From Sulfurimonas hydrogeniphila (lineage in GTDB: Bacteria; Campylobacterota; Campylobacteria; Campylobacterales; Sulfurimonadaceae): a DNA stretch of 64,000 bases. Numbering within the stretch: position 1 is the stretch's first letter; each line of letters opens with the position of its first letter. The translations under genes were made by a program, and so were the position numbers. The stretch lies in assembly GCF_009068765.1 (NCBI RefSeq), contig NZ_CP035534.1, positions 372,001 through 436,000 of the forward strand. Direction: 5' to 3'. Below the pieces are notes generated by a model, which had not been told where the DNA came from, did no database searches, and saw only the letters and a list, made by a program, of their open reading frames with translations. Shown one piece after another: positions 47,791-62,880 of the stretch.

Positions 47791-47867
47791 GCGCTCGTAG
47801 CTCAGCTGGATAGAGCACTGGTTTGCGGTACCAGCGGTCACATGTTCGAATCATGTCGGGCGCACCA
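47791..47867 (+). tRNA. tRNA-Arg (GCG)
   Basis: A 77-base cloverleaf: acceptor arms GCGCTCG/CGGGCGC, anticodon stem CTGGT/ACCAG around loop TTGCGGT with anticodon GCG, T-loop GTTCGAATC and encoded ACCA. The DNA beyond its 3' end is strikingly different from the core genes, as expected for an integration site. Confidence 0.93.
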
Positions 47868-47935
47868 TTAACAAACTCCCTAAATGATGAACTTTCAAAC
47901 AAATTTTAAAAATACAAAATCATTTAAGAATTAGA

Positions 47936-53250: not shown

Positions 53251-54171
53251 ATGAGAGGAAGCGTATACTATCAGACAGCTGAATTGACGAAAATTATTTT
53301 TCAAGAGGGTGCAAAAAAACAAGATAGGATAAATCCAAAACATCTTCATTATCAAAAAATTGCAAGTTATAATACCATGAAAAGTTATCGTGATGTTTGG
53401 AACAATTTTCTAAATTATTTAAAGGAGCATTGGAACGTAAAAGATTGTGAAAAAATAAATTTTGAACATATTCTCGCATACATTGATTACAAAGTTGAAT
53501 ATTATCCATCAAAGCAATATTTACAAAAAATAATCTCCGCACTTGGTAAATTAGAGATAGCATTAAACTACTACTCAAAATTAAAGTATGACTTCCCAAT
53601 TCTATATGATTTTAGTATAAGAAGTTCATTACTTACTGAAGCAACGAATTTGAAATTAGTAGCAGATAATTATCATAATCGAACTTATCAAGATCCAATA
53701 AAATTAATTGAAAATTTATCTAAATCTAAACACAAAATTGCTGCAAAAATAGAGTTAGAAGGAGGTGCAAGAGTTGAGGCTTGTACTTTAATAAAAAAAG
53801 AACAATTATTAGAATATAAAATTGATAAAATTACACAAAATAATAAAGGAGTACTCTTTACAAAAGAAAAAGGTGGGAAAGAGGGGAATATATATATTTT
53901 GGTCGATACTTATAAATTATTACTTTTAGAAATTGAAACAGTTGGCGTATTTAAAATTAATCGTGCAAATTATATGAAAGATATTCGAGAAACTGCCAAA
54001 AGATTAAATATAGCTTCAGAAGGTACGCATGGTTTTCGATGGAATTTTGCAAAAAGAAGACTTTTCGAATATGCCAATGCTGGGTATACATATGAGCAAT
54101 CATTACTCTTGGTAAGTAAAGAAATGAAACATAATCGAGCTAATATCACTGAACATTATTTAGGTGGTTAA
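53251..54171 (+). CDS. Tyrosine recombinase (phage/plasmid integrase family)
   Basis: A 306-residue recombinase. The catalytic set is visible: Arg in GARVEA near residue 172, a lysine in KGGK, HGFR near 259, His in KHNRAN near 292 and the nucleophile Tyr in EHYLG near 302. Such enzymes integrate elements or resolve plasmid dimers. An ATG at 53241 with the better ribosome-binding site opens only a 13-codon frame that ends inside this gene, so start or coupling is uncertain. Confidence 0.88.
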   Translation: MRGSVYYQTAELTKIIFQEGAKKQDRINPKHLHYQKIASYNTMKSYRDVWNNFLNYLKEHWNVKDCEKINFEHILAYIDYKVEYYPSKQYLQKIISALGKLEIALNYYSKLKYDFPILYDFSIRSSLLTEATNLKLVADNYHNRTYQDPIKLIENLSKSKHKIAAKIELEGGARVEACTLIKKEQLLEYKIDKITQNNKGVLFTKEKGGKEGNIYILVDTYKLLLLEIETVGVFKINRANYMKDIRETAKRLNIASEGTHGFRWNFAKRRLFEYANAGYTYEQSLLLVSKEMKHNRANITEHYLGG

Positions 54172-54482: not shown

Positions 54483-55601
54483 ATGTACGATTTTTTAGAA
54501 CAAAATGAACTTGATAAAATAATAAATCGATTTAACAAGATGCGATTGTATCATAAGCATGGATATAATAATTTACTTCCAATAAGTACATTTAAAAAAT
54601 ATGCCAAAAATTATCAACAAGTTCAACTCAATACAAATTTTCATTTTAATGCAATCATTATGGATATTGACGATGAAACATTATTGACAGAGTGGAATGC
54701 ACAAGGTCTTCCTGTCCCAACTATTCAGACAGTCAACAAAAATAATAATAGAGCGCATTTGGTATGGTTATTGAACACTCCAGTGTACAAAGAATACAAA
54801 CATGCAGTTGCATACTATATGGCAATTGTTAATAGTATAAAAAAGCTCATTGGCGCTGATTTGGCATATCAAAACCATCAAACAAAGAATTTTCTAAACA
54901 CTGAATTATTTAGAGTGACCTATAATGATGTAGCATACGATCTTGAAGATTTTAGAAAATTTATTGCTCATGATGTATTAGCTGAACATCAGTATGCTGA
55001 GTTTGATTACCTTGTTGCTGAGAGTCGTCATATTCATCTTTTTGAGTTACTAAGGGGCTATGGGTATACAATAGCAAAAGATCCAGACTTGTTAAATAAA
55101 TTGACACAAAAAGCAGAAGCTATCAATCAAGGTTTTAATAATCCAATAAAAGTTAAATATATCGTCAAATCTGTTTATCAGTTCTGTGAGCAAAATCGAA
55201 ATAATTTTAAAGATAAAAATCGTAAACGGGTTATGAATAATAAAAAAATATATAATTTGCCTCCACGAGAGTACAAAGAAGAGGTAAAAAGGCGACAAAG
55301 TAGGTCAGCTATTCGTACTAGCACGATAAAAAAACTGAAAACTGCTACAAAAATTAAGATAGCTATTGATCAACTTATTCGTAAAAAATTAAAACTAACC
55401 ATCCAGAATATAGCTAACTATGCAAATATTTCATCGTCAACTGTACGCAGAAATATCAAAATAGTCCAGATTTTTATTCAAAAGTCAACTGGTTTCATTC
55501 GCTCTATAAGATTGATAGTACGGAGAGCGAGTCAGGGGCATTTGGATCCAAAGGATGCTTATTTATGGGTAAACTCTTTTGTTCCTTTTCAATTAGAATA
55601 A
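54483..55601 (+). CDS. rep: Plasmid replication initiation protein, ColE2-type (primase family)
   Basis: A 372-residue protein. NAIIMDIDDE, GLPVPTIQTVNKNNNRAHLV and the later HQTKNFLNTELFRVTY follow the order of the archaeo-eukaryotic-like primase domain of ColE2-type Rep proteins, with a helix-turn-helix (LTIQNIANYANISSSTVRRN) near residue 310. These proteins nick-free prime leading-strand synthesis at the origin. It starts after the structured leader. Family assignment is by motif order and neighbours (parA). Confidence 0.78.
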   Translation: MYDFLEQNELDKIINRFNKMRLYHKHGYNNLLPISTFKKYAKNYQQVQLNTNFHFNAIIMDIDDETLLTEWNAQGLPVPTIQTVNKNNNRAHLVWLLNTPVYKEYKHAVAYYMAIVNSIKKLIGADLAYQNHQTKNFLNTELFRVTYNDVAYDLEDFRKFIAHDVLAEHQYAEFDYLVAESRHIHLFELLRGYGYTIAKDPDLLNKLTQKAEAINQGFNNPIKVKYIVKSVYQFCEQNRNNFKDKNRKRVMNNKKIYNLPPREYKEEVKRRQSRSAIRTSTIKKLKTATKIKIAIDQLIRKKLKLTIQNIANYANISSSTVRRNIKIVQIFIQKSTGFIRSIRLIVRRASQGHLDPKDAYLWVNSFVPFQLE

Positions 55602-55605
55602 TAAA

Positions 55606-55857
55606 TCAAATAAATTTCGCTAAACTGATCTTACAAAGTGCACTCACACTTATTCCAAGTTCTTTAGCAGCAGATTCTATTTTAGCTTTTTCATCTTTGG
55701 TAACATTGATAAAAATCTGTTCACTTGCTTTTTCATGAATGTTTTTTTTTGGTCTGCCACCTTTATTTTTCTTGGCTTTATTCATATCTGCTGCTTTTAT
55801 AAAACTTCTCTCTTTTTCTGTAATTTCTAAATCATCTAATTCTTTAATTTTTGCCAT
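55606..55857 (-). CDS. Ribbon-helix-helix DNA-binding protein, ParG/CopG-like
   Basis: An 83-residue protein with a basic, disordered N-terminal part and a C-terminal EQIFINVTKDEKAKIESAAK, ELGISVSALCKISLAKF segment matching the RHH fold. Next to parA it is the likely partition partner and autoregulator. The 29-base gap to parA contains ATACTAGTAT and ACTAGT boxes spaced by 11 bases, suitable operator sites. Confidence 0.75.
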   Translation of the reverse strand: MAKIKELDDLEITEKERSFIKAADMNKAKKNKGGRPKKNIHEKASEQIFINVTKDEKAKIESAAKELGISVSALCKISLAKFI

Positions 55858-55886: not shown

Positions 55887-56540
55887 CTAGTTATTTAGTA
55901 GTGCATAAATCTCTTTTGTAAACTTTTTAATCTCTTCTTGAGCTTGACCTTTTTTGTTGAGTTCTTTCACTGTAAGTCCTTCTCCATAGCTATTTTTATA
56001 GTCTGCTCTTGAATATAACGTGCTCTCTAAAAGATTAAAGTAATTATGTTTTTCTATGATGTAATTTTGTAAATCTTTGAGTTTTGATTTGGATCTGCTG
56101 TCAACATTGTTAAGCAAGACATTCGTTTTTATTTTTTTGCCAAGTGCTTCACTTGCATCTTTTAATATTTTTCTGAATTTTTGCAGTCCAAATATCTCTA
56201 TTTGAGATATACCAACAGGAGTAATGATAATATCAGCTTTAATAAGTGCTGTTCTATTGATGTCGCTGTCATATCCACCACTATCAATTATAAGAAGATT
56301 GTTTTTGTCAGACATATAGCTACTTAAGAACTTTGTTAAATCTATATCATTTTGAGTAACGCATTTGATAGTTGGAAGTTTTTCACCTGCTCGAAGTTGA
56401 TTAAATAAAACAGCAGAATGCTGGGAGTCAAGATCTAGTATAGTTATGTCTTTATATTTCTTTTGAACCTGGTATGCAAAATTAATAGCGATAGTACTTT
56501 TACCAACGCCACCTTTTTGATGAGAGAATAGAACTATCAT
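55887..56540 (-). CDS. parA: ParA-family partition ATPase
   Basis: A 217-residue ATPase. The deviant Walker A motif QKGGVGKST lies at residues 8-16, and the LDLDSQ (near 37) and LIIDSGG (near 83) segments complete the site. ParA moves plasmid copies apart with a DNA-binding partner. It is short for chromosomal ParA and fits plasmid type Ib. AAAGGAG precedes the ATG. Confidence 0.92.
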   Translation of the reverse strand: MIVLFSHQKGGVGKSTIAINFAYQVQKKYKDITILDLDSQHSAVLFNQLRAGEKLPTIKCVTQNDIDLTKFLSSYMSDKNNLLIIDSGGYDSDINRTALIKADIIITPVGISQIEIFGLQKFRKILKDASEALGKKIKTNVLLNNVDSRSKSKLKDLQNYIIEKHNYFNLLESTLYSRADYKNSYGEGLTVKELNKKGQAQEEIKKFTKEIYALLNN

Positions 56541-56606: not shown

Positions 56607-57389
56607 TTATTTACTTTTAAAAGATACAAATTCTTTTACTAAGTTTTTCACTCTTTTACTAGCTATACCTAGCGATGTTAAAGCTTTTATATCTTCTTTA
56701 ACAAGTTCTGACAAGTTTGTTGCGTTTGATAGATATAAAGGCAAAGAGTTATCTTTATGCTCTTCAATTATGATTTGTAACTCTTCCATCTCTTGTATCA
56801 TCTTTTTCACTGTATGCACCGCTTTTAAACGCTTATATATAAAATCTTTAAACGCATAATCTCTTGAATAAAACAGCGGAATAGGAAGATTTGCTAAAAA
56901 AAGAGGACTGAGGATTTTTCTGTTGTTTTCAGAGCTTTGAGGTCTTTTTGCTATATATTTTTTGACATACGGAAGTTGTAAATATGTTTGAACAAACAAG
57001 GAGACTTCTTCTGCCTCCTGTGCATCTTCATATTCAAATTGAATACGTATTGCACTGTTGTTGCTTACAACAGGATGCTTATATTCTCTGTCAATCCGAC
57101 CAACTTGAATATCTAATCCTCTATAGGAAACTAAAAGATCATTTTTATGCAGTGCTTGTGATGCAATTGCACTGGCATTTGCCGGTGCCGGTTTTTTCTT
57201 AGTAGAATTAACTTGAATGATACCATACGCATCGATATCCGCAAGTGTGACCTCATTATAATCGAGAACATCTCTTTTTGTACCAACACGCACCTTTGAG
57301 ATGACAGCAATTTTTTTTGTTAAATCTTTAAGCTTGACAATTGGAACATCATGAAACTCTTCTTCTAATTTGGCTTTTAAGTCAAACAA
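56607..57389 (-). CDS. HsdS-like DNA-recognition protein (single target-recognition domain)
   Basis: A 260-residue protein with LHKNDLLVSYRGLDIQVGRI and SPLFLANLPIPL, matching one target-recognition domain of type I restriction specificity subunits, followed by a coiled C-terminal part (near 190-220). No HsdM or HsdR gene is in the window, so it is an orphan or a domain recruited to DNA recognition on the element. The start is TTG at 57389 with AAGGGG upstream. Confidence 0.7.
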   Translation of the reverse strand: MFDLKAKLEEEFHDVPIVKLKDLTKKIAVISKVRVGTKRDVLDYNEVTLADIDAYGIIQVNSTKKKPAPANASAIASQALHKNDLLVSYRGLDIQVGRIDREYKHPVVSNNSAIRIQFEYEDAQEAEEVSLFVQTYLQLPYVKKYIAKRPQSSENNRKILSPLFLANLPIPLFYSRDYAFKDFIYKRLKAVHTVKKMIQEMEELQIIIEEHKDNSLPLYLSNATNLSELVKEDIKALTSLGIASKRVKNLVKEFVSFKSK

Positions 57390-57537: not shown

Positions 57538-57951
57538 ATGTTAATTTTAAAAATTATCGCCGCTTTAGTTGTATTGTATGTACTGTATATAATCGCCATA
57601 GAAATCAATAAATACACGCAAAAGAAGTATAGATATTTATTTCTCAATAAAATTACTCTTATTACTTCATTATCAGGATATGGCGTGTCATTCTTTGGCT
57701 ATAACTGGTATGTAAATGCTCTCAGCCAACATGGTGATATATTAAATGGTCAAATTTTAATGGCAATAGGTGCAATTTTATTACTCTGGACAATGTATAC
57801 CAATATCGATAAAACAGGTTTATTCACTGGGGCTATTTTTACTGTTATACAACAGGTACTTTATTTAGTAGTAGGTGCAGCTGGTCTTTTTATACTTGTA
57901 TTATTATTTGCAGTATATGCTCAAGCAAAGCCGGTGTATAGAATAGATTAA
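57538..57951 (+). CDS. Hypothetical membrane protein, 137 aa
   Basis: At least three transmembrane helices (about residues 3-22, 40-58, 75-90 and 98-125). I do not recognise a family. AAGGA precedes the ATG and TATAAT lies about 55 bases upstream. First plus-strand gene after the partition module. Confidence 0.65.
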   Translation: MLILKIIAALVVLYVLYIIAIEINKYTQKKYRYLFLNKITLITSLSGYGVSFFGYNWYVNALSQHGDILNGQILMAIGAILLLWTMYTNIDKTGLFTGAIFTVIQQVLYLVVGAAGLFILVLLFAVYAQAKPVYRID

Positions 57952-58023: not shown

Positions 58024-58305
58024 ATGCGAAGTGCTAAAAAGGTACTGGCAATAATAATTTTTTTACTGGGAGGCATCATACTGATGCAATTAGGGGGTAT
58101 GAATAGCACACAAACTACCAAAAAACAAACAATTCTCGCTTTCCAAAGAGGCAAGAGCTTAATCTGTCAAGATTCCCTTGGAGGCAGAGCCTCCATTCTT
58201 GTAAATAAAAAGAGAGATTGGCATATTTATAAAAAGCAATATTTTAAAAAAGGTGATGAATTGATAAATGTTGCATATTGTACTTTAGTAGACGCAGGAG
58301 AGTAA
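58024..58305 (+). CDS. Two-cysteine small membrane protein (paralogue 1)
   Basis: A 93-residue protein with one N-terminal transmembrane helix and a short soluble domain. The domain (FQRGKSLIC ... WHIYKKQYFKKGDELI ... YC) shares the pattern AF-x-x-x-K-x-L-x-C, then G/D-W, YF, D and C with the paralogues at 58960, 59304, 61338 and 61740. Function unknown; the cysteines could form a disulphide outside the cytoplasm. GGAG precedes the ATG. Confidence 0.7.
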   Translation: MRSAKKVLAIIIFLLGGIILMQLGGMNSTQTTKKQTILAFQRGKSLICQDSLGGRASILVNKKRDWHIYKKQYFKKGDELINVAYCTLVDAGE

Positions 58306-58306
58306 G

Positions 58307-58645
58307 ATGAACAGTGCAATTATTTTAATAACGCTTTTAGGAATCTTTTCTCTTACCGTTACTTTTATAGCATTGCGTAACGCGCCATTGAAAAAAGAAG
58401 ATATACATAATCAGGATAAACCAGTCCCCTTACCACAAAAGAGCATCAAGCTTTTTAATGCAAGTGGTAAATTACTTTTAGAATATACAGATTGTTATGT
58501 AACGCATTTTAGCCAAACACTTTATCTCTTGTCACACCAATATAAAGGGGAGGCTTTTTTAAAGATTGACAAAGGAAGCGATATGCTTTTACTTATTGAA
58601 AACCATCTAGAAGGAGAAACAGATGCAACAAACGAAGTCAAATAA
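58307..58645 (+). CDS. Hypothetical membrane-anchored protein, 112 aa
   Basis: One N-terminal helix (AIILITLLGIFSLTVTFIAL) and a soluble domain with a single cysteine. It lacks the paired-cysteine pattern of its neighbours. The ATG is two bases after the previous stop, and the next gene starts inside its 3' end. Confidence 0.65.
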   Translation: MNSAIILITLLGIFSLTVTFIALRNAPLKKEDIHNQDKPVPLPQKSIKLFNASGKLLLEYTDCYVTHFSQTLYLLSHQYKGEAFLKIDKGSDMLLLIENHLEGETDATNEVK

Positions 58646-58949
58646 TAGTAAAGAACCAAACACAGCGTTCTATTCAAGAGAGAACCTGCAAAAGAGTTTA
58701 GCACACGCACTCGACAAAATTCGCTCAAAAAATTGTGAAGCAATTTATATCACAAAAAATGAAAAAAGTTCTGCAGAAGCAGTCATGCTTGATATCAATG
58801 AATATGAATATTTACAACAAAGATTACAAACATACAATGCACTGTTGCATGATGTAGCAGATAAAACACTATCCCAAAAGCTCAATACCATAGAACAAAA
58901 GATTGATGCAATACAAGAGGGTATAGACATTATTAAATATGTGAAATAA
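58623..58949 (+). CDS. Phd/YefM-like antitoxin, 108 aa
   Basis: A soluble protein with YSRENLQKSLAHALDKIR and EAVMLDINEYEYLQQRLQ, recalling the Phd/YefM DNA-binding antitoxin fold, followed by a coiled C-terminus. No toxin gene is obvious beside it. Possibly a regulator of the operon. Confidence 0.6.
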   Translation: MQQTKSNNSKEPNTAFYSRENLQKSLAHALDKIRSKNCEAIYITKNEKSSAEAVMLDINEYEYLQQRLQTYNALLHDVADKTLSQKLNTIEQKIDAIQEGIDIIKYVK

Positions 58950-58959
58950 AGGAGAAAAG

Positions 58960-59304
58960 ATGTTTGCATTTATAGACCCAGATATGATAAAAGCCGTTAT
59001 ATTGTTGATTCTAACCATCTATGCATTTTATGGAAGTCTTAGTTTGGATGGTTCAAAACCATCTCTTTTAAAAGCAATTCATGCTTTGATAATTACTGCT
59101 ATAGCGTATGTGTTTGTAAGTGCATACAATGATAAAGAGGATGCTATTGCAAATACAAAAGCATTTTTGCATAAAAGTGTCTTTGTCTGTAAAAACAGTG
59201 AAAACCTCTACCGTGTGAGTAAAAAAGATGGCTGGAGTGTTGATGGGTATTATTTTATAAAAGACTCCTTGATGATTCGAGCAGACGGATGCAAGAGGAA
59301 ATAA
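58960..59304 (+). CDS. Two-cysteine small membrane protein (paralogue 2)
   Basis: A 114-residue protein with two N-terminal helices and the shared domain: KAFLHKSVFVC, then VSKKDGWSVDGYYFIKDSLM and IRADGC. The last stretch is nearly identical to the paralogue at 61740 (FI-x-DSLMIRAD-x-C). Function unknown. GGAG precedes the ATG and the stop overlaps the next ATG by one base. Confidence 0.7.
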   Translation: MFAFIDPDMIKAVILLILTIYAFYGSLSLDGSKPSLLKAIHALIITAIAYVFVSAYNDKEDAIANTKAFLHKSVFVCKNSENLYRVSKKDGWSVDGYYFIKDSLMIRADGCKRK

Positions 59305-59639
59305 TGCTGGAGTATATTGATGATACGACAGCAATTAGTTTGGCTCTTGTTGCTTACAGCCTAAATGATGAAGAAAGAAGCTTTTTAGGACTTTCTCTCT
59401 TGATGCTTGGGGTGAGTGTAGTGTTATTAATTGATGACTTAGATGATAACAATAAAAAAAAGATACTTTTTAATAAGAATGCTGCATTTACATGTAAGGC
59501 GGATAACTCTCTTATTGTAAAAAAAGATTTGGGTTATAGAAGTGAGAGTATCTATTTTATAAAAGATAAAAAGCGCTATAAAATTCAAGATTGCCATCTT
59601 GTAAAAAACAGTTCAAAAACAGATACAACTACAAAGTAA
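59304..59639 (+). CDS. Two-cysteine small membrane protein (paralogue 3)
   Basis: A 111-residue protein with two weak N-terminal hydrophobic segments and a domain with NKNAAFTC, KKDLGYRSESIYFIKDKKR and DC, the most divergent of the set. An in-frame earlier start (59289) is possible; 59304 has AGAGGAA upstream. It contains one copy of TTACATGTAA (59488-59497). Confidence 0.65.
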   Translation: MLEYIDDTTAISLALVAYSLNDEERSFLGLSLLMLGVSVVLLIDDLDDNNKKKILFNKNAAFTCKADNSLIVKKDLGYRSESIYFIKDKKRYKIQDCHLVKNSSKTDTTTK

Positions 59640-59651
59640 AGGAGTTTTTAT

Positions 59652-59909
59652 ATGCAAACACAAAAAAGTTATAGAATCACCCTCTACAGAGAGGTCAACC
59701 ATAAAATCAGATACTACAAACTCTCACTGATGCTTAACCTCTTTGGTGAGTTTATTTTTTCTAAAGAGTACGGCTCGCTTAAACGCCCTAAACCAACACG
59801 GGTAATTGAGGAGTATTATAAAAGCTATAAAGAGGCCTACACCCACCTGCAAAGCAAACTCCAACAAAAGTATAAAAAAGGCTACAAGGAGTGTATCAAT
59901 GAAAGATGA
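59652..59909 (+). CDS. WGR-domain-like protein, 85 aa
   Basis: SYRITLYREVNHKIRYYKLS, LFGEFIFSKEYGSLKRP and a C-terminal LQQKYKKGYKE follow the WGR-domain layout, though the W-G-R tripeptide itself is replaced by EYGSLKR. WGR domains bind nucleic acids. Acts perhaps with the DUF2130 protein. GGAG precedes the ATG. Confidence 0.65.
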   Translation: MQTQKSYRITLYREVNHKIRYYKLSLMLNLFGEFIFSKEYGSLKRPKPTRVIEEYYKSYKEAYTHLQSKLQQKYKKGYKECINER

Positions 59910-60102
59910 AGAGATAGAATTTACCCTGCCAAAAGAGCTCTATGAACAACTCAAACACTTAGCAGAGAGTTCAGATATGAGTATAGAGGATATATCAATA
60001 GCAGCCCTGGAGGCATTTGTTAAAAAATATAAAAACTACACAAAAGATGAGTATTACAAAGAAAGAGGAGAAAAAACTTATGAATACAGCAGCAACAATT
60101 AA
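59899..60102 (+). CDS. Small ribbon-helix-helix-like protein, 67 aa
   Basis: IEFTLPKELYEQLKHLAESS followed by MSIEDISIAALEAFVKKY matches the RHH pattern of small DNA-binding proteins. The start ATG has GGAG upstream and overlaps the WGR gene by 11 bases. It overlaps the start of the DUF2130 gene. Confidence 0.65.
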   Translation: MKDEEIEFTLPKELYEQLKHLAESSDMSIEDISIAALEAFVKKYKNYTKDEYYKERGEKTYEYSSNN

Positions 60103-61345
60103 GTGCCCAAACTGTGGCAGTGAAATTAACATAGAAGAAGCACTCTACTCCAAACTTCAAACAAAGTTTGATGTAGACAGGGAGAGTGAGCGCAAGAAAT
60201 ATAAACTTGCGATGCAAAACCTCTCTGCCCAAAAAGAGGCAATCGAGGAAAAAGAAGCAGCCTTTGAGCATAAACTCCAAGAGGCACTTAGTCAAACACT
60301 AAGCAAAGAGAAGACAAAAATGCAGTACGAACTCACAGAGAGTATCAAGAAAAACCTTTTAGAGGAGAACGCTCTGCAACTCAAACAGCTCCAAAGCGAA
60401 CTCGACCAAAAGTCCAAACAGCTCCAGGAGCTCAATTTGCAAAAAGCAAAGGTGGCCCAACTAGAGCGAGAAAAGGAGGAACTCTCCTCTAAAATAAAAG
60501 CTGAAGCACAAATTGAGCTTAATAAAAAAATCCAACTAGAACGCCAAAAAGCAATCGAGGAGGCAGCCCAGGCAAATGAGATGAAACTCAAAGCCAAAGA
60601 GGAGCAGTTAGACCAGATTAAAAAACAGCTTGAAGATGCCAAACGCAAAGCAGAGCAGGGGAGTCAACAACTCCAGGGTGAAGCACAGGAAAAAAGTATA
60701 GAGGAGTATCTTAGCCTCACATTTAAATATGATGAAATAACAGAGATAAAAAAAGGAGCCTTTGGAGCTGATTGTATCCAAACCATCAACACCCCTGATT
60801 TTACAAACTGTGGAAAAATCTGTTATGAGTCTAAAAATACCAAAACCTTCTCCAATGATTGGATTGCCAAACTCAAATCCGATATGCTTGATGCCAAAGC
60901 CGATGTTGGAGTCTTAGTCACTGCCGCCAAACCAAAGGGTATGGAGCAGATGGGATTTATTGATGGTATCTGGGTTTGCTCTTACGATGAGTTTAAAGGG
61001 AGTGCTGCTCTAATTAGAGAGGGAATTATTGCAAGTTATATGGCTGCAAAAAGCCAGGAGAATAAAACAGATAAGATGACACTGCTGTATAACTACTTTA
61101 GCGGCAATGAGTTTAGTATGCAACTCCAGGCAATAGTATCTGGTTTTATGGCGATGCAAGAAGAACTCAACAAGCAAAAACGCTCTGTTATGGCAAGCTG
61201 GAGTCGACAACAAAAACAGATCGATACCGTACTGCTCAATACTACCAATATGTATGGAAATATAAAAGGCATTGCCGGTAATGCAATTGCCAATGTAGAA
61301 GCTTTAGAATTAGAACACTTTGAGGAGGAGGGCGAAGATGTTTGA
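60080..61345 (+). CDS. DUF2130 coiled-coil protein with nuclease-like domain
   Basis: A 421-residue protein. A CPNCGS half zinc ribbon opens it, then a long coiled coil (about 30-205), then a C-terminal domain with GAFGADCIQTI and ICYESKNTK, which looks like a PD-(D/E)xK nuclease core (E-x-K in YESKN). DUF2130 proteins are of unknown role, some linked to DNA defence or maintenance. It stands at the centre of the operon of small membrane proteins. Confidence 0.82.
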   Translation: MNTAATIKCPNCGSEINIEEALYSKLQTKFDVDRESERKKYKLAMQNLSAQKEAIEEKEAAFEHKLQEALSQTLSKEKTKMQYELTESIKKNLLEENALQLKQLQSELDQKSKQLQELNLQKAKVAQLEREKEELSSKIKAEAQIELNKKIQLERQKAIEEAAQANEMKLKAKEEQLDQIKKQLEDAKRKAEQGSQQLQGEAQEKSIEEYLSLTFKYDEITEIKKGAFGADCIQTINTPDFTNCGKICYESKNTKTFSNDWIAKLKSDMLDAKADVGVLVTAAKPKGMEQMGFIDGIWVCSYDEFKGSAALIREGIIASYMAAKSQENKTDKMTLLYNYFSGNEFSMQLQAIVSGFMAMQEELNKQKRSVMASWSRQQKQIDTVLLNTTNMYGNIKGIAGNAIANVEALELEHFEEEGEDV

Positions 61346-61712
61346 GTATATCAATCCATTTTTTGGGGTGATGCTGCTTTTGGTTATATTTGTCACTCTT
61401 TTATTGACGTTTTATGCAATAGGAGAAAAGCAAGCAAAAGGTACAAACTTTAAAGCTCCCTATTTTATGTATGGCGCTTCTGCTCTTTTACTCTTTATGC
61501 TTGTTTGGGATGCAACTGACACAAAACATAAAATCCATAATAATATTACAGCCTTCAATGCAAACAGAGCCCTCTCTTGTCAAGCTGCTGGACTCAAGCG
61601 TATCATCTCTAAAGCCAAAGGGTGGTATCTGCTTGATACCAACCACTTTAGCAATGGGGACGCTATTATTGCCAATAGTTTGTGTGAAGTGTTACAGATC
61701 AAGAAAAAATAA
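61338..61712 (+). CDS. Two-cysteine small membrane protein (paralogue 4)
   Basis: A 124-residue protein starting MFEYINPFFG with two helices, then AFNANRALSC, KAKGWYLLDTNHFSNGDAII and LC. It shares MFEY and the domain with the paralogue at 61740. The ATG with GAGGAGGG upstream is chosen over an in-frame upstream start at 61320. It overlaps the DUF2130 gene by eight bases. Confidence 0.7.
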   Translation: MFEYINPFFGVMLLLVIFVTLLLTFYAIGEKQAKGTNFKAPYFMYGASALLLFMLVWDATDTKHKIHNNITAFNANRALSCQAAGLKRIISKAKGWYLLDTNHFSNGDAIIANSLCEVLQIKKK

Positions 61713-61739
61713 TAAAACAAAAATAAGGAGTAAACAAAG

Positions 61740-62072
61740 ATGTTTGAGTATTTTAATTATGGTGGATTTTTTTTCTTGGTGTTTTTAATGCTGATAAGTT
61801 TTAAAATGCGAGAGGAGATAGCACCGCTTTATGGACTGTTCATATTGGTATTAGTCCTGATAGTATATGATGCTTACGCATCATATAGTGATGCCAAGAG
61901 TAATTTGAAAGCTTTTGAATATGGAAATACACTTACTTGCAGAAGTGGTGGTGGTGCTTATGGTGGTGTACAAAAATACAGTGTCTCTAAAGCAGAGGGT
62001 TGGAGAGTGCATAAGAGTTATTTTATTCATGACTCTTTAATGATTCGTGCCGATAAGTGCGAGCTACAATAA
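61740..62072 (+). CDS. Two-cysteine small membrane protein (paralogue 5)
   Basis: A 110-residue protein with two hydrophobic helices, then LKAFEYGNTLTC, VSKAEGWRVHKSYFIHDSLM and IRADKC. Closest to the paralogue at 58960. AAGGAG precedes the ATG. Confidence 0.7.
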   Translation: MFEYFNYGGFFFLVFLMLISFKMREEIAPLYGLFILVLVLIVYDAYASYSDAKSNLKAFEYGNTLTCRSGGGAYGGVQKYSVSKAEGWRVHKSYFIHDSLMIRADKCELQ

Positions 62073-62093
62073 AAAAAGAAGGAGAGAAGAGAA

Positions 62094-62456
62094 ATGGTTG
62101 GATTTGAGACAATGCTCTTTGATTATAATGAAGGATTAACACGCTTGGGTATTAATCACCCCTACATCACCGGTTTTGATTTTTTTATGAATATTATTCT
62201 CACTGCAATTTTAATGTTTGGATTTGAAAAGACAGTTGTTGCAAGTGGCATATTTGATAAGTATGAAGATCATATAACACTCTTTACGATGAGTATAGTT
62301 GTAGTGGGACCAATTGTTATAGGAATATATTTTCATGAATATACAGAAGTACTTCTATTTACAGTCTTTGTTCTTATTGTTCTTGCAGTAGCAATATTTG
62401 ATATATTTGAAGATTTTAGAACCTATCTTGATGAGAAGTTTGGATGGCTTTTTTAA
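62094..62456 (+). CDS. Hypothetical membrane protein, 120 aa
   Basis: Three probable transmembrane helices (about residues 28-46, 63-81, 86-104). It lacks the two-cysteine domain but is transcribed last in the same series, with AAGGAG upstream. Family not recognised. Confidence 0.6.
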   Translation: MVGFETMLFDYNEGLTRLGINHPYITGFDFFMNIILTAILMFGFEKTVVASGIFDKYEDHITLFTMSIVVVGPIVIGIYFHEYTEVLLFTVFVLIVLAVAIFDIFEDFRTYLDEKFGWLF

Positions 62457-62574: not shown

Positions 62575-62880
62575 ATGAAAAAAATAATAATAGGTGCAGT
62601 TTTGGCATCAACAATGGCATTGGCAGGTAGTTACACTTTAGCTCCAGATGGTAGTTATGTTAGCGGGGATACTGCAACTTTAGCTCCTGACGGCACATAT
62701 GCAGGAGGTAATAGTGCAACACTAACTCCAAATGGTTCTTATGTAGGGGGTTCGAGCAGTACTATGACGCCAAATGGTAATTATGTAGGTGGATCAACAA
62801 GCACTTTGGCCCCTGATGGCTCTTATGTTGGTGGTAATACTGCAACTTTGGCGCCTGACGGTTCTTATGTAGGGCAATGA
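62575..62880 (+). CDS. Secreted protein of six 14-residue repeats
   Basis: A 101-residue protein with a signal peptide (about 1-18, ending ALAG) and six repeats of the consensus xATLAPDGSYVGGN covering residues 19-101 without linkers. It is entirely repeat after the signal. It could be a surface or periplasmic protein; function unknown. The repeats are conserved in protein but differ at many third codon positions, so the array is not a recent expansion. Confidence 0.75.
   Translation: MKKIIIGAVLASTMALAGSYTLAPDGSYVSGDTATLAPDGTYAGGNSATLTPNGSYVGGSSSTMTPNGNYVGGSTSTLAPDGSYVGGNTATLAPDGSYVGQ

Follow-up and report, generated by a model that had tools for sequence, protein, structure and literature searches.

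Arrays of two-cysteine membrane proteins on mobile elements of Campylobacterota and their possible link to Phd/YefM-like proteins

The DNA-binding domain of the membrane regulators ToxR and CadC is an OmpR-type winged helix. CadC also carries a periplasmic cysteine pair whose state matters for function (PMC3096576). A related layout is found in co-component cassettes such as VtrA/VtrC and ToxR/ToxS, where a regulator anchored in the membrane and its partner in the periplasm are encoded by small adjacent, often overlapping genes that evolve fast, and a cysteine lies close to the C-terminus (PMC9214523). Small membrane proteins are also carried by mobile elements as Eex/TraG entry-exclusion factors (PMC11493245).

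How does the locus described here compare? It lies in a stretch of 64,000 nucleotides of Sulfurimonas hydrogeniphila (NZ_CP035534.1, positions 372,001 to 436,000; hereafter the window), in which a sequence-only reading had proposed five paralogous two-cysteine small membrane proteins (hereafter 2-Cys proteins) grouped around a DUF2130 protein. The listed features of the co-component cassettes recur in the 2-Cys sets, the tethered regulator and periplasmic partner as predictions, but these sets have no recognised lipocalin-like partner, belong to another phylum with other folds, and hold up to five paralogues. As with Eex/TraG, small membrane proteins are found on mobile elements; unlike them, the arrays occur without TraG in the S. 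hydrogeniphila genome, are associated with Phd-like proteins and have core chromosomal relatives. The comparison with ToxR and CadC is made through a fused relative at another locus (L138), which likewise combines a cytoplasmic, predicted DNA-binding domain, one transmembrane helix (TMH) and a periplasmic cysteine pair. Its N-terminal domain has the Phd/YefM fold and no OmpR-type winged helix, and the parts are usually separate genes, in arrays, the fusion having been seen once. Phd/YefM antitoxins share this N-terminal fold, and sequences from loci L033 and L039 exceed the Pfam cut-off for Phd, but in L138 the domain continues into a membrane helix followed by a periplasmic domain, and among the neighbours read no toxin partner was recognised. 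Since both domain folds differ from those of ToxR/CadC and the co-component systems, the likeness appears to be one of working, a resemblance and not membership.

The window array and its host island

The five 2-Cys genes lie in a single tightly packed forward-strand run, at 58024..58305 (one TMH), 58960..59304 (two TMH), 59304..59639, 61338..61712 (two TMH) and 61740..62072 (two TMH). A hidden Markov model trained without any sequence from this genome recovers these five window proteins and no others, with E-values of 3e-18, 7e-25, 3e-11, 2e-21 and 3e-26, respectively, against a best value of 0.14 among about 180 remaining window ORFs and 185 shuffled controls; paralogy is thus beyond chance. 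The proposed starts and the overlapping arrangement are both borne out, neighbours overlapping or nearly adjoining, and the profile search with the shared domain places the five proteins in one family, not in unrelated ones. The small proteins at 58307, 62094 and 57538 have no match to the out-of-genome profile and are non-members. The set is larger than first described and also takes in the genes at 57538 and 62094 and the divergent gene at 56607.

The last of these (56607..57389, reverse strand) encodes a lone HsdS-like protein with a single target recognition domain (TRD; PADLOC Specificity_I, 5e-7), whose family profile (F4) matches “Esub1” of PDB entries 8vsr and 8vsq (9e-4 for 8vsr). The forward run is headed by a multi-TMH protein with a GDILNGQ motif (F3; 57538..57951; weak DUF2975 match, 0.003) and ends with a membrane protein of TM helices and a C-terminal aromatic tail, ...EKFGWLF (62094..62456; hereafter the FF-tail protein). 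Between them, also on the forward strand, are a single-TMH protein without the 2-Cys domain (F55; 58307..58645; homologue at L036:509-793), a Phd/YefM-like protein without a TMH (58623..58949; Pfam Phd, 0.005), a WGR-like protein (59652..59909; Pfam WGR, 5.6e-4; 41% identity to a homologue at L132), an RHH-like protein (59899..60102; Pfam RHH_1, 0.0025) and the DUF2130 protein (60080..61345; PF09903, 1.8e-67). The sequence-only reading had named WGR-, RHH-, Phd- and nuclease-like neighbours. The first three score below the Pfam cut-off in the window, although Phd homologues at other loci pass it; the DUF2130 protein has a PD-(D/E)XK-like signature (D...ExK), of which GAD and ESK are invariant in 14 homologues. 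The same reading suggested a defence or envelope-stress system. In a PADLOC scan of ten set proteins, matches apart from that of the TRD protein were weak or absent, with none for the 2-Cys proteins; the set has no clear match to a defence system there.

The genome is a single contig of 2.34 Mb. A tRNA-Arg(gcg) gene (47791-47867; ARAGORN) ends in a 55-bp direct repeat (attL, 47823..47877, forward strand) which recurs about 64 kb to the right, past the window end (genome 483838-483892), and whose 23-bp core occurs exactly twice in the genome; the repeats mark an integrated element. The resulting 64-kb island (genome 419845-483892) runs from window position 47845 past the window end. Near its left end are a tyrosine recombinase (F13; 53251..54171, forward strand; Phage_int_SAM_1, 1.8e-4, 0.1 bit under cut-off), a plasmid-type replication initiator (54483..55601, forward strand; PF03090 Replicase, 5e-17, above cut-off), a NikA-like ribbon-helix-helix protein (55606..55857, reverse strand; PF21983, 5.4e-6, 0.1 bit under cut-off) and a ParA partition ATPase (55887..56540, reverse strand; AAA_31, CbiA and ParA families, several above cut-off). 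The F13 recombinase recurs next to 2-Cys arrays in Arcobacteraceae. Further right lie Cas1, Cas10/Csm1 and Cas6, a reverse transcriptase, DarT and AbiEii, all confirmed by Pfam, together with a second integrase. The setting is mobile and rich in defence genes, including a type III CRISPR-Cas system that comes with the reverse transcriptase.

A second copy of the operon is present on the reverse strand at G000:C1:1285200-1290400 (L003). It adjoins a type I R gene, with an F13-like recombinase (identified by eye) at 1.307 Mb, and the paralogue at 59304 was not found in it. Between the copies, identity is 99.2% over the 3' block (window 59669-62456) and 86% over the 5' block; the DUF2130 proteins are identical and the duplicated block stops exactly at the stop codon of 62094. 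This pattern points to a duplication in the recent past or to gene conversion. Among the 2-Cys and Phd genes with appreciable differences, dN/dS between copies is 0.19-0.28, which indicates purifying selection. The TRD gene has a value of 0.51, and F3, with few differing sites, one of 0.87.

Fold, topology and spread of the 2-Cys family

Members share the pattern F-x(5-7)-C ... VSK..GW....YF.K ... C, and both cysteines are invariant across 59 aligned sequences. For these 59 members Pfam gave no match at 1e-3 and NCBIfam no family, apart from one stray ComGE match (4e-4) of a single member; PADLOC and PHROGs likewise gave no match. An AlphaFold2 model of 61740 (pLDDT 91.8) has helices at 7-22 and 28-60 and six strands spanning 65 to 109, and the protein is accordingly predicted to comprise two membrane helices and a six-strand β domain. 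Foldseek, run with the 2-Cys model against PDB and BFVD, gave nothing at E <= 0.001. In particular, no ToxR-, CadC- or VtrA-type periplasmic fold was matched in PDB at that threshold or was among the 50 matches listed. The cysteine pair probably forms a disulphide in this domain.

Lysine and arginine are richer in the inter-helix loop than at the N-terminus in all two-TMH members (33/33), which would place the loop inside and the domain outside; the signal is less clear-cut in one-TMH members (14/25). A further member, L129:10967-11221, has a lipobox and is probably a lipoprotein. The 2-Cys domain is therefore putatively periplasmic as judged from these sequence features, which agree with the earlier description of the proteins as membrane-anchored.

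Matches to a family profile (A2) were obtained in 91 of the 135 Sulfurimonas genomes searched and, across the phylum sample, in 104 of 397. The family has so far been seen only in Campylobacterota, in many genera, and has two kinds of member. Accessory members occur one to five per locus on plasmids and on integrated elements or islands. A tblastn search of PLSDB and phage sequences with 61740 gave no match; with an Aliarcobacter member as query, seven Aliarcobacter/Arcobacter plasmids were matched. Scans of viral contigs, each with one short pattern, found no 2-Cys protein. The A. faecis plasmid pAFAEC (NZ_CP053838) carries three 2-Cys modules, at 91.4-92.6, 98.3-100.1 and 106.7-107.9 kb, two of them copies in inverted orientation whose protein accessions are identical.

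Core members are single-copy and chromosomal and, with neighbours named by eye, adjoin siroheme/nitrate genes or occupy the gap between murC and mutS2. To the first group belong those of L144, L072, L073, L179-L184 and L189-L191, beside siroheme-decarboxylase-like, met8-like, NnrS/NorB-like and CRP-like genes; that of L144 (L144:6586-6936) is the core member of S. hydrogeniphila itself (G000:C1:743585-743935). Distant members amid murC-like and mutS2-like genes are L185:5048-5389, L187:4865-5212 and L188:4786-5133. Cj1053c and HP0622 we take to be names of such murC-mutS2 members. The literature searched reports no function for 2-Cys proteins: nothing was found on HP0622, and for Cj1053c only a small expression change. 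These core members raise an alternative in which the arrays descend from them, help in envelope or redox functions as periplasmic housekeeping proteins, and travel on the elements as ordinary cargo. Both the core neighbourhoods and the recovery of core members by an accessory-only profile (5e-14 to 4e-6) fit such a descent. It is nonetheless quite improbable, as it leaves the arrays, island context, FF-tail partner and Phd fusion unexplained and the family lacks a CXXC motif.

Partners of the arrays and the case for exclusion

In these accessory arrays, which genes travel with the 2-Cys proteins? Removal of three core loci from a survey of 32 left 29 accessory loci from 25 genomes, which are not all independent and some of which lie at contig ends. 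An FF-tail membrane protein is found within 2.5 kb in 26 of the 29 and is the near-constant partner of the arrays; the label is given by a family profile or by size, TMH and C-terminal motif together, and does not denote one demonstrated homologous family. By comparison, among 13 loci with DUF2130 only, examined over 5 kb on either side, a single one has an FF-tail gene, and this is the S. aquatica plasmid carrying a degraded 2-Cys gene. Other partners are less frequent: Phd-like genes at 15/29 loci, F3 at 12/29, TRD at 11/29, WGR at 6/29 and DUF2130 at 3/29. The view that the paralogues always flank a DUF2130 protein holds in the window and in its second copy but fails elsewhere, and DUF2130 is ruled out as the hub.

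Two further kinds of protein were observed near arrays. A small protein recurrent in Sulfurimonas arrays (F15; L126:3527-3916 and homologues) matches phrog_8252 (1.3e-11; unknown function). Repetitive secreted-looking proteins with GSYVGG or SDGSYS repeats, grouped by appearance, are found at window 62575-62880, L037:12801-13136 and L038:3198-3530.

The most serious rival to a sensory role is exclusion of incoming elements. Here, periplasm-facing small membrane proteins would block related plasmids, integrative elements or phages, and diverged paralogues would supply several specificities. An outward-facing domain, diverged paralogues and an element-borne location match known exclusion factors, and the S. 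hydrogeniphila island also bears type III CRISPR-Cas, DarT and AbiEii. The L032 array is near a large TraG-like gene (L032:1734-6872; TraG_N, 3e-32), separated from it by a FIST-like gene (by eye) and a transposase-like fragment, and traG-like C-terminal sequences adjoin arrays in L036 and L132 (by eye). Against this, the S. hydrogeniphila genome has no TraG_N gene; of the 135 genomes, 11 have one, and the regions retrieved around ten of these genes are without a 2-Cys gene, so that entry exclusion tied to TraG is weakened. Moreover, the annotated parts examined of pAFAEC name no conjugation genes despite its three modules, and exclusion leaves the Phd fusion and core chromosomal members unexplained. 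We regard it as rather unlikely.

The Phd fusion and a possible sensor-regulator role

That the membrane proteins are joined to nucleic-acid proteins, as first proposed, is best seen in the fusion (L138:2261-2755, genome G132), a single ORF comprising a Phd-like N-domain, a TMH and a 2-Cys domain. A profile built from other Phd-like genes is matched by its Phd half (1.1e-11), which also finds window 58623 (E 1.1e-4, 38% identity), while the 2-Cys half separately finds window 58024. Both domains are modelled with confidence (pLDDT about 94 for the Phd-type domain), from an alignment (A10) in which the Phd rows were placed correctly and the TM parts of the 2-Cys rows were not. In a PDB fold search, every one of the top 22 matches is a chain of a Phd-, YefM- or RelB-type antitoxin, and four of these chains come from complexes with DNA; the best probability is 1.00, with E-values above 0.05. 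A membrane-tethered Phd-type domain is also present in TM-Phd proteins at four further loci (L033, L125, L126 and L128), that of L033 being above the Pfam cut-off, whereas the window Phd-like protein has no TMH. Membrane-tethered RHH proteins were suggested by eye at L129 and L132; neither Pfam nor BLAST confirmed them.

A Phd fold could also belong to a toxin-antitoxin or abortive defence system, with 2-Cys or FF-tail proteins as effectors, Phd-like proteins as antitoxins, and DUF2130 (PD-(D/E)XK-like) and NYN proteins as optional nucleases. The fold itself, the defence-rich island, the D...ExK signature and an NYN domain above cut-off at L131 are in its favour. It is quite improbable, as PADLOC gives only weak matches once the TRD protein is set aside, an antitoxin fused to its own membrane toxin would be odd, and core chromosomal 2-Cys members exist in many genera.

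Fusion to a predicted DNA-binding domain in a relative suggests that the set may pass surface signals to genes. Tentatively, and with rather less than even confidence, we propose that the arrays are membrane-tethered sensor-regulator cassettes of mobile elements, similar in working to ToxR/CadC or co-component systems and built from unrelated domains. One or two inner-membrane helices would hold the small, probably disulphide-bonded β domain in the periplasm, where it may respond to a ligand, a partner or its own redox state. A change in this domain would alter the state of a cytoplasmic, putatively DNA-binding partner that is fused (L138), membrane-anchored (other loci) or encoded by a neighbouring gene (window), and this partner could in turn control genes of the element or neighbouring cassettes. 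DUF2130, WGR and TRD proteins may also have a role.

This proposal is supported by the Phd-2-Cys fusion, the TM-Phd proteins and the Phd-like genes at about half of the accessory loci, together with the topology signals, the lipobox member and purifying selection on 2-Cys and Phd genes. Counting against it, the full fusion is known from one draft genome alone (81% complete), being found in 1/135 Sulfurimonas genomes and in none of the 397-genome phylum sample, and around half of the accessory loci, including all examined Arcobacteraceae ones, have no Phd-like gene. Regulators also seldom occur as five-paralogue arrays. In its favour, known regulators of such layout have functionally important periplasmic disulphides (PMC3096576; PMC9214523).

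The sensor-regulator reading can be taken further, to unrecognised surface-to-gene cassettes of Campylobacterota in which 2-Cys sensor arrays, FF-tail proteins and membrane-tethered Phd/YefM proteins would let mobile elements sense envelope events (phage, mating or damage) and, in response, switch genes of the element or for defence; this fuller version we consider unlikely. None of the family libraries searched contains the 2-Cys family, yet its members occur across many genera of Campylobacterota and are multiplied on mobile elements. The family lends itself to direct tests, as its domain boundary is clear, its cysteines are invariant and its model is confident. Should the fusion reflect normal function, Phd/YefM proteins, which are known as soluble antitoxins, would have a second use as transmembrane regulators, and mobile elements would bring surface sensors of their own.
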